NCBI GenBank assembly: GCA_004193555.1
Contig: RPGP01000029.1
Span: forward strand, 204,976 to 268,975
Length of the DNA stretch: 64,000 bases
From: Desulfobacteraceae bacterium Eth-SRB1
GTDB taxonomy: Bacteria > Desulfobacterota > Desulfobacteria > Desulfobacterales > ETH-SRB1
Reading direction: 5' to 3'
Shown here in pieces: positions 2,721 to 56,545 of this stretch. Position numbers and translations under genes: made by a program. The notes below the pieces were generated by a model that saw only the letters and a program-made list of their open reading frames with translations, made no database searches and was not told where the DNA came from. Position 1 is the first letter of the stretch. The number at the start of each line of letters is the position of its first letter.

Positions 2721-3070
2721 AAGATGAACGTTCAACACCCGCCTGCCATGCATTACAAACGATGGTGGTATGATCATTGTCACAGGGCAGAAATACAAGG
2801 ATATTCTACCATGACTACTCAAAGGCATTGCGGGCAGGTCGAACATCGAACATCGAACGTCGAATAAAAGAAAGGAATTAGCCGCAGATAAACGCAGATA
2901 AACGCAGATAAACGCGGATATTTTTCTCGTTCCCATGCTCCAGCGTGGGAATGCATACCATATGGGTTGCCACGCCGGAGCATGGGAACCAGGGAAACGT
3001 CCAACATCGAATATCGAATAAAGAAAGAAAAAGATAATTAGGCGCAAGAGGCGCAAAAAGAAGATATACA
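2721..3070. repeat. Gene-free spacer between modA and modB packed with four repeat types
   Basis: No gene seen. Three short-word repeats occur: GAACATC/GAACGTC heptamers at 2838-2864 and 2997-3020, and four copies of a ten-base word (CGCAGATAAA with variants) at 2881-2920. A hairpin has arms at about 2931-2950 (GTTCCCATGCTCCAGCGTGG) and 2970-2989 (its near-exact complement). The spacer interrupts what must have been a compact modABC operon, so it looks like an insertion. Confidence 0.8.
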
Positions 3071-16475: not shown

Positions 16476-16683
16476 GGCTGAAGGCTAAAGGCTGTTAGGA
16501 AGGGATTTAGGGATTGAAAAAAATGAACATCGAACGTCCAACGTCGAATTTTGAATAAGGAATTTTGCCAATTTATAAACTGGAGGAGCGGAGCGACATC
16601 ATTATTCGACGTTCGATGTTGGACGTTCATCTTTTAACATAGGGGACGGGAATTAAAGGATTAAATGATTAGAGGATTAAGAG
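16476..16683. repeat. GAACGTC-heptamer inverted repeat plus half GGCTGTTA repeat
   Basis: Arms are at 16523-16549 and 16603-16630. Each is built of three seven-base units (AACATCG, AACGTCC, AACGTCG), in a different order in the two arms. The loop contains GGAGGAGCGGAGCGACATCATT, seen also beside other copies. A partial GGCTGTTA run lies at 16481-16500. It separates two subunit genes of one enzyme. Confidence 0.85.
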
Positions 16684-19026: not shown

Positions 19027-19044
19027 AATAAAAAACAAATCAAA

Positions 19045-19110
19045 AGATGAACATCGAACGTCCAACATCGAACGTCGAACGTCGAATAATGATGTCGCTC
19101 CGCTATTTAA
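19045..19110. repeat. GAACGTC-heptamer repeat, one arm
   Basis: Five consecutive seven-base units (GAACATC, GAACGTC, CAACATC, GAACGTC, GAACGTC) at about 19049-19084, then AATGATGTCGCTCCGCTATT, which is the loop part of the complete elements. The facing arm is missing, so this is a half element. Confidence 0.8.
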
Positions 19111-34075: not shown

Positions 34076-34210
34076 TCTCACGCAAAGTCGCAAAAAAAAA
34101 GATGAACATCGAACGTCCAACGTCGAATGAAAGAACGAATACCCAATAGCGAACATTCAACCACACCAAGGCATTTTCTTTTTTTGCGAGCTTGGCGACT
34201 TTGCGTGAGA
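34076..34210. repeat. GCAAAGTCGC-word hairpin with a GAACGTC element nested in its loop
   Basis: The outer arms are TCTCACGCAAAGTCGC (34076-34091) and GGCGACTTTGCGTGAGA (34194-34210). Inside lies a GAACATC/GAACGTC heptamer run (34103-34127) and a reduced facing part. One repeat family has apparently inserted into another. Confidence 0.85.
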
Positions 34211-54195: not shown

Positions 54196-54532
54196 GGGAT
54201 TGAAAAAGACGAACGTCGAACATCGAACGTCCAACATCGAATAATGATGTCGCTCCGCTATTCAAATTATTCTAAAATCTAACGAAAAAACAAACACCAA
54301 ATGAGAAACAAAGGTTCAAGGTTCAGGGGTTCAGCTTGAAACTTGAAACCAGCAAAAACCTACGATTTCTGACCACCGACTTCCGATCTCTGTCTCTTCC
54401 CGACCCAAGCCCGCCGCGTAAGCGAGAGCGTTGCTGGCAGGTCTGACCTTCGTTTTTTTGTTTTTCATTCGACGTTCGATGTTGGACGTTCATCTTTTTA
54501 ACACCTGATGAATTCGGTTTTTTACGAATTCA
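54196..54532. repeat. Gene-free spacer after pgi with facing GAACGTC arms
   Basis: No gene seen. A left GAACGTC/GAACATC heptamer arm (54212-54239) with the typical AATGATGTCGCTCCGC tail, and a right arm (54467-54492) about 230 bases apart, enclose GTTCAAGGTTCAGG and CTTGAAACTTGAAA words (54311-54346) and ACCACCGACTTCCGATCTC words (about 54372-54392). At 54508-54540 follows a hairpin TGATGAATTCG..CGAATTCATCA with a TTTTTTAC loop, whose right arm contains the stop codon of the Nudix gene. Confidence 0.85.
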
Positions 54533-56377: not shown

Positions 56378-56545
56378 AACAGGTGTTAAGTGTTAAGATC
56401 TTGATATGACAGTTAAATGTTTAATCTTAACACCTAACACTTAACACCTGACACCTGATGAATTCGACTTTTTACGAGTTCATCAAGGTTCGGCATTGGT
56501 TTTTTTATTCGACGTTGGACGTTCGATGTTGAACGTTCATCTTTA
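56378..56545. repeat. Three successive palindromic repeats upstream of the aldolase gene
   Basis: First, an inverted repeat of GGTGTTAAGTGTTAAGAT (56380-56400) facing ATCTTAACACCTAACACTT (about 56430-56455). Second, a TGATGAATTCG-ACTTTTT-ACGAGTTCATCA hairpin (56456-56485). Third, one GAACGTC-heptamer arm in reverse (56507-56543). No gene is present between 56306 and 56564. Confidence 0.8.

Follow-up and report, generated by a model that had tools for sequence, protein, structure and literature searches.

Inverted heptad arrays in a Desulfobacteraceae genome as the probable ends of a small, apparently mobile element related to rRNA intervening sequences

Heptad arrays in the window and across the genome

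The window analysed here is a stretch of 64,000 nucleotides from contig RPGP01000029.1 of Desulfobacteraceae bacterium Eth-SRB1, and it carries several arrays of seven-base units such as AACGTCG. At 16518-16635, two inverted arms of three units each enclose a core and form a complete short element. By parsing the sequence in heptads, we obtained the following copies, in which X and Y stand for the two types of end that are distinguished below.

2842..3018, + strand: two diverged direct arms (2842-2862 and 2996-3016), no hairpin
16518..16635, + strand: complete short gene-less element; termini 16518-16525 and 16628-16635, X arm 16526-16546 (three units), core 16547-16606, Y arm 16607-16627 (three units, minus strand)
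19042..19104, + strand: single end of Y type; five heptads 19050-19084 between the terminus AAAAGATG and the Y inner sequence AATAATGATGTCGCTCCGCT
34097..34127, + strand: single arm of unclassified end type; terminus AAAAGATG, three heptads 34105-34125
54204..54498, + strand: longer gene-less element; termini 54204-54211 and 54491-54498, left arm 54212-54239, right arm 54470-54490
56510..56545, - strand: single arm of four heptads; terminus CATCTTTA, in intergenic DNA missing from the congener

All window copies are gene-less, and they lie between or beside protein ORFs, none of them in a 23S rRNA gene. The left arm at 16526-16546 reads AACATCG AACGTCC AACGTCG in tandem, and the right arm at 16607-16627, read on the minus strand from its outer end inward, AACGTCC AACATCG AACGTCG. 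The heptad parse thus confirmed the first-pass annotation, which had described the arms at 16523-16549 and 16603-16630 as the same three units in a different order. The annotation had also given three to five units elsewhere. This holds for the sites that it cited, with five units at 19050-19084, three at 34105-34125, four at 54212-54239, three at 54470-54490 and four at 56510-56537. The arms sampled more widely range from two to six.

The genome that holds the window (G000) comprises 3.34 Mb in 52 contigs. With one mismatch allowed at most, the two-unit pattern AACRTCSAACRTCSAAC matched it 222 times on the forward and 175 times on the reverse strand (397 matches), compared with 0 matches for the same pattern read backwards, and the abundance of the heptad family is therefore beyond chance. 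Exact matches to the heptad pattern were present in 23 of 38 genomes, namely in all 17 of the same family (G000 to G016) and in 6 of 21 others of the order. The control gave 0-1 matches in all but one genome, the exception being G027 with 22 control matches and zero real ones.

For the parsing of single arms, we used 604 kb of DNA, consisting of the window and 27 stretches of 20 kb (540 kb) that had been picked for holding copies, so that densities in this sample are not to be extrapolated. Among the 88 arms parsed, 7 had two units, 21 three, 37 four, 20 five and 3 six; two of these arms, at L045 1044 and 5394, are not independent, as they lie 4.35 kb apart with identical left flanks, which suggests a recent tandem duplication that included the element. 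The 88 arms form 25 two-armed elements and 38 single arms that have no partner within 260 bp, in agreement with the earlier remark that several copies are single-armed. The heptads contain the letters CGTC, and 72 of the 97 short-period tracts in the 604 kb have a period of 7 (48 tracts) or 14 (24 tracts). We also observed further heptad or octad families filling intergenic DNA of the 604 kb, with the words AACACCT/AACACTT, AATCCTCT and AAGGTGAG, for example at 56390-56480 in the window and at L041 14800-14860.

Two distinct ends, arm pairing and genomic placement

Outward, the arms run into AAAAGATG, and here the element boundary is sharp: the majority base accounts for 72-95% over the eight terminal positions and for 51% at the next position outward (n = 88 arms). 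Inward, the arms continue either into AATTTTGAATAAGG or a similar sequence (X ends) or into AATAATGATGTCGCTCCGCT (Y ends). On this basis 68 of the 88 arms could be classified, 37 as X and 31 as Y, and the 20 arms that fit neither inner sequence were excluded from the X/Y counts. X arms have the near-fixed order AACRTCG-AACATCG-AACGTCC-AACRTCG, with four units in 31 of 37 and three in 6 of 37, while Y arms have three to six units and usually carry AACGTCC outermost. With AACGTTC counted as AACGTCC, this unit is outermost in 22/31 Y arms versus 4/37 X arms and next to innermost in 31/37 X arms versus 3/31 Y arms, a difference for which Fisher values overstate the evidence because the arms are related by descent.

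Wherever both arms of a two-armed element were classified (17 elements), one end was X and the other Y; in the remaining 8 pairs one or both arms are unclassified. Different order within one hairpin is therefore the rule, since the two ends differ, and length varies mainly at the Y end. The inner distance between arms is 53 in 4 and 60 in 11 of the 25 pairs. The first-pass annotation had proposed that arms gain, lose and swap units. Length changes in steps of seven and some exchange stand, but free permutation does not, because the order is set by the type of end. Nor do the 88 arms display a fixed order without seven-step variation: the X order is near-fixed, but lengths vary.

The annotation had further held that the hairpin pairs only because the units are alike, and this was borne out. 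Identical unit order in both arms occurred in 0/25 pairs, and in-register identity between arms (505/616 over the 25 pairs) was not above that of shuffled order. The idea that arms are kept as matched stems was accordingly rejected, as the observed identity was reached by 937 of 1000 shuffles when aligned from the outside, by 313 of 500 from the inside and by 487 of 500 at the best heptad offset. Nevertheless, all six elements that we folded gave stable stems, with z from -5.2 to -9.3; as RNA, the element at 16518..16635 folds with -40.5 kcal/mol (z -5.2). In its best fold, where the register is slipped by a heptad, the two sides keep 14 and 7 bases unpaired; in the fold of one L041 element, a single complete heptad forms a bulge. 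Since all units are alike, a stem can form in several registers and a unit-by-unit match is not needed, which explains why stems are stable despite unmatched order.

We then compared the copies with one other genome of the genus (G001); in the part of the window used for this, the coding flanks of the two genomes align at 85-95%. The element at 16518-16635 is absent from the orthologous intergenic place in G001, as are the copies at 56508, at L041 907, 14772 and 18968 and at L044 17622, although the compared sites are surrounded by other intergenic change, so that most of these differences could equally reflect loss in G001 or gain in G000. The L044 stretch is syntenic with the congener only over its last 2 kb; for the copy at L044 17622, the junction on the right reads cleanly as ...CATCTTT/ATAAACC (with one base difference allowed). 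At 19050 both genomes have an arm, of five units in G000 and two in G001, a change in unit number of the kind for which the annotation had suggested comparing strains. At 54212 an identical four-unit arm in X order is found in both genomes with different interiors, the one in the window having its units in X order next to a Y-type inner sequence; exchange of interiors between copies does happen. At L041 17681, G001 has a different, single-armed copy. No target-site duplication was found in the 25 two-armed elements, where the mean was 1.92 versus 2.29 for exchanged partners.

We examined the position of 59 elements relative to genes. Of these, 48 are situated between two neighbouring ORFs, which are in tandem in 38 cases, convergent in 8 and divergent in 2; another 5 overlap an ORF of at least 110 codons, and 6 were unplaceable. 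Some placements deserve separate mention. Two copies lie within an apparent methylmalonyl-CoA mutase operon at L041 10757-14074, one between genes and one upstream, and the region from L041 10592 to 14481 is missing at the corresponding place in G001. At L113 1412-1420 and L041 11895-11910, the neighbouring gene ends on a TGA stop codon contributed by the terminus AAAAGATGA; this gene has 424 codons at L113, and at L041 we take it to be methylmalonyl-CoA-mutase-like. Small inserts that start with CCTGCC and end in a GGCGGG-like sequence sit inside heptad elements at L044 4277-4546 and in G001:C18 near the place of L041 17681.

S23 genes framed by inverted arrays

Two copies in the genome enclose a single gene of about 120 codons (C1:19768-20136 and C1:214035-214394), and their proteins are 93% identical. 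The enclosed protein matches, above cut-off, the four-helix-bundle family TIGR02436 and PF05635, '23S rRNA-intervening sequence protein', and it is related to the solved structure 2rld (E 3e-23); we refer to such proteins as S23. In the first copy, the X arm stands on the 5' side of the gene and a Y-type end on its 3' side. In three gene-less copies at L047, the X arm runs across the start codon into the first codons of the ORF and then straight to a stop, and at L083 the 3' end of the ORF is retained. From these remnants, the L047 and L083 copies appear to be internal deletion derivatives of the S23-bearing element. The two enclosed genes are 2 of 16 PF05635 matches in the genome.

Relatives of the enclosed protein at 60% identity or more were present outside the family in 6 of 21 genomes of the order, and five of these genomes are also among the 6/21 with heptads. 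We viewed 15 loci of relatives in other genomes, with up to two mismatches allowed per 16 positions, and found heptad runs on both sides in 11, on one side in 3 and none, with another repeat instead, in 1. The X-end 24-mer in exact order occurred patchily in 27 of 146 genomes and 19 of 104 genera of the order (control 0). G001 has many short copies and only an S23 relative of 30% identity, and G022 has heptads without such a gene, so that no intact S23-bearing partner was seen in either. In G022, a genome of 7.7 Mb without a close S23 relative, homogeneous AACATCC or AACATCG arrays stand at many contig ends, and these are heptads of another make-up.

Inside the element we found no enzyme with a known catalytic role. 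There is no reverse transcriptase in the element sequences examined, and the 12 RVT_1 matches of the genome lie elsewhere. Linkage to a Y1/RAYT transposase was likewise rejected, as heptad pairs occurred within 1.5 kb at 0 of 14 PF01797 loci.

Most of the 16 PF05635 matches of the genome are flanked by inverted short tandem words, which differ by gene and include GGGGTCA, AGGTCAG, AAGTGCCTA-like nonamers, AACCGTT, AGAAGGTT and others. An S23 gene with the words AACACCT/AACACTT, AATCCTCT or AAGGTGAG was not found in this genome. An inverted flank score of at least 28 was reached by 10 of the 16 PF05635 matches versus 2 of 13 Y1 transposase loci (13 of 14 loci were used, one cut-short locus being left out), and four of the six PF05635 matches below the threshold are halves of interrupted genes. 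We noted three interrupted S23 genes, one in G004 and two in this genome. At L137 (G004:C79), an insert interrupts the gene; its ends are GGCTACCAAC/GTTGGTAGCC, AAAAACCT flanks it on both sides, and it is a MITE with an apparent 8-bp duplication, unrelated to the heptad element. Two S23 genes of the genome are apparently split (L110/L114 and L111/L117), the interrupting DNA being bounded by CCCTGTTAAAT and ATTTAACAGGGCA.

To cover a wider range, we assembled 109 loci, comprising 80 named loci obtained by scanning bacterial genome contigs and 29 further loci with the strongest PF05635 matches of the phylum, in which 87 of 148 genomes have a PF05635 match. By title, the named loci belong to Thermodesulfobacteriota, Verrucomicrobiota, Planctomycetota, Lentisphaerae, Kiritimatiellota, Nitrospirota, Cloacimonadota and others. 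Scores were obtained for 98 loci, with the start of the protein match as the upstream gene edge; 11 were excluded because their flanks were shorter than 150 nt or contained many N. Inverted flanks scoring at least 28 were present at 81/98 S23 loci (65/71 named and 16/27 of the phylum) and thus fell short at 17, compared with 19/98 (15 and 4) in direct orientation and 13 (13 and 0) for exchanged partners. The same threshold was reached by 6 of 131 neighbouring genes in these loci and by 20 of 328 other genes of this genome. In a periodicity scan restricted to lags 4-15, strong periodicity (lag score 20/28 or higher) was seen in 124 of 196 flanks and in 0 after shuffling; the period was 7 in 97 of these flanks and 14 in 17.

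Upstream arms were similar in 91% of locus pairs with protein identity above 80% and in 0.7% of pairs below 25%, the pairs not being independent of one another. As arm similarity tracks protein identity, arms and gene travel as a unit, the word changing with the protein. Many of the loci come from metagenome bins, and the cross-phylum cases of high identity (L172, L174, L176 and L177), which may be binning errors, were not used as proof of transfer.

Plasmids gave a similar picture. In a mostly cyanobacterial set, for which 26 of 45 records were taken, one of them as an Avd control, 16 of 25 S23 loci had inverted flanks with periods of 7 and 8, and 9 were below the threshold. On Azospirillum lipoferum AZO_p2 (L284), the S23 frame lies inside a 23S rRNA gene (RF02541) and has inverted repeats of the AGAGGACGGATGACAG type, with a period of 7, on both sides. 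The control, the Avd gene of a real diversity-generating retroelement (L285), has no such arms. As a separate observation, S23 genes of the cyanobacterial plasmids L274, L279 and L282 stand between cas6 and cas4 or between cas10 and cmr3. This may explain why surveys list the family as CRISPR-associated; the 23S rRNA IVP domain is named among the associations of the CRISPR adaptation module in a figure legend of one such survey (PMC10910872).

Interpretation and comparison with known systems

Taken together, we consider it probable that a small, apparently mobile element is bounded at its two ends by the GAACGTC arrays. It would be an intergenic relative of the rRNA intervening sequences (IVS) with gene-less, MITE-like derivatives, and it would belong to a wider class in which every S23 subfamily uses a heptad or octad of its own and which includes at least one rRNA intervening sequence of the same anatomy. 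This reading starts from the anatomy, the association of gene and arms, the dispersal and the differences in presence and unit number between congeners that we observed. A complete copy would consist of AAAAGATG, an X array of about four AACRTCS heptads, a leader, one S23 gene, a trailer, an inverted Y array of three to six heptads and CATCTTTT, with X and Y ends laid out differently like the left and right ends of many transposons. Most copies would be gene-less derivatives, as MITEs are of transposons; their unit number would shift by sevens, presumably through slippage, and their interiors could be exchanged between copies.

Solved S23 proteins have a ring arrangement, and an S23 protein, the product of xcc0516 in Xanthomonas campestris, reportedly has five four-helix bundles (Lin et al. 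2006, from the title). Avd, a relative of S23, serves a reverse transcriptase. We infer that the S23 assembly binds its own heptads, either as DNA or in the transcript, and that, once bound, S23 may single the element out for a second enzyme, possibly a reverse transcriptase, which would place copies at new sites without duplicating the target. RNase III would cleave the hairpin in the transcript, as it does in rRNA, and insertion between the genes of an operon would then be tolerable and harmless. A more far-reaching idea, which we put forward only tentatively and hold to be somewhat short of an even chance, is that S23-type proteins are the specificity factors of a large class of mobile elements, each protein subfamily reading its own inverted tandem word of seven or eight bases, with intervening sequences as the members that landed in rRNA and many heptamer repeats as gene-less remains.

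Several other explanations were weighed against this reading. Ordinary MITEs mobilised in trans by a DDE or Y1 transposon, with the S23 gene as a passenger in some copies, would likewise be short, number in the hundreds, have defined termini and include gene-less derivatives, and would account for an element that lacks a catalytic enzyme. However, no target duplication accompanies the copies, the 14 Y1 transposase matches have no heptad pairs near them, and the association recurs with different heptads across subfamilies and phyla, which is unexpected for a passenger; we regard this explanation as unlikely. It is also improbable, and to a higher degree, that the arrays are immobile signals selected in RNA or DNA, such as 3' hairpins, processing sites or protein-binding sites, which S23 genes gain as regulatory flanks. 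Such signals would fit the stable hairpins in 6/6 folded elements (z -5.2 to -9.3) and the placement of 48/59 elements between neighbouring ORFs, with few between divergent genes (2/48) and 5 overlapping an ORF, but they leave the presence and absence at orthologous places of congeners, the sharp termini, the arm pairing no better than that of shuffled order and the patchy occurrence over genera unaccounted for.

Simple heptanucleotide microsatellites that arose by slippage and became inverted by chance are very hard to reconcile with end-specific order, fixed termini, constant X+Y pairing, a recurring core and the framing of one gene family, even though unit number is variable and heptads dominate the short tandem repeats here. 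A last alternative is a special form of the favoured explanation and overlaps with it in confidence: the element would move as RNA via a resident reverse transcriptase, with S23 as an accessory like Avd. The match of S23 proteins to bAvd/Avd models, the 12 RVT_1 matches in the genome, the lack of target duplication and the existence of an rRNA-borne relative speak for this route, whereas no reverse transcriptase is linked to the element and the Avd gene of the real retroelement (L285) is without arms. We hold it to be rather doubtful in this specific form.

Two puzzles meet in these elements, namely the role of the S23/IVS protein together with the spread of IVS, and the over-representation of heptamers among bacterial short repeats. 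Were the arms the words to which the framed proteins bind, word and reader could be paired by sequence alone across many genomes, and binding and mobility would become directly testable. Much of the turnover and of the hairpins between the genes of genomes like G000 would then be explained as well.

MITEs and REP/REPIN are short inverted-repeat elements with hundreds of intergenic copies, being non-autonomous forms of a gene-bearing element. The heptad elements share with MITEs sharp-ended terminal inverted repeats and many intergenic copies, but they differ in the lack of target duplication. Derivatives of an S23-bearing element are seen, and a transposase was not found. Unlike REP/REPIN, they have no linked RAYT, and their ends are tandem heptads in two distinct orders. 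They resemble a heptanucleotide microsatellite (STRR) in their variable-number tandem heptamers, although termini, end-specific order and a framed gene go beyond an STRR. The Avd proteins of diversity-generating retroelements belong to a homologous four-helix-bundle family and are, in the parts of the source that we draw on, linked to a reverse transcriptase gene (PMC10053308). Unlike in such a retroelement, no reverse transcriptase adjoins S23 in the element sequences examined.

Intergenic tandem heptamers, mostly of four units, have been described as GGGAATC arrays in Xanthomonas and GGGGAYT arrays in Nostoc (PMC4692102). Many of the Xanthomonas arrays are inverted pairs, 70 in Xcc and 75 in Xac, and the arrays lie nearer the upstream ORF, are rare between divergent genes and stand at other genes in sister species (PMC4692102). 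The elements found here are alike in being intergenic heptamers in inverted pairs that are rare between divergent genes; in the sections of that report used here, the arrays are treated as quadruplex-forming repeats generally unassociated with mobile elements, and S23 is not named (PMC4692102). TAACTGA repeats of Beggiatoaceae, Cyanobacteria and Bacteroidetes are also intergenic and patchy, and horizontal transfer was suggested for them, 'but no mechanism is evident' (PMC4679880). These repeats are nearly all direct and were proposed as a translational signal, and the text does not mention S23 or a four-helix bundle (PMC4679880).

The closest likeness is to the rRNA intervening sequences, with which the elements share an S23/IVP ORF inside complete forms and terminal inverted repeats that form a stem. 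In the 23S rRNA IVS of Coxiella burnetii, the S23p ORF lies within terminal inverted repeats, tandem GACAGAT heptamers stand upstream of it in two or three copies depending on the strain, and the IVS was suspected to be selfish or mobile by a mechanism given there as unknown (PMC4990558). As far as the consulted text of that source goes, heptamers are described upstream of the ORF only and in rRNA only (PMC4990558), and the elements found here differ by lying between protein genes, by hundreds of mostly gene-less copies and by arrays at both ends. In the open-access literature, with most subscription journals outside the scope of the search, we found no report of S23/four-helix-bundle genes joined to heptad arms outside rRNA. 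We see the element class as a variant of the rRNA intervening sequence, and possibly as its more general form.
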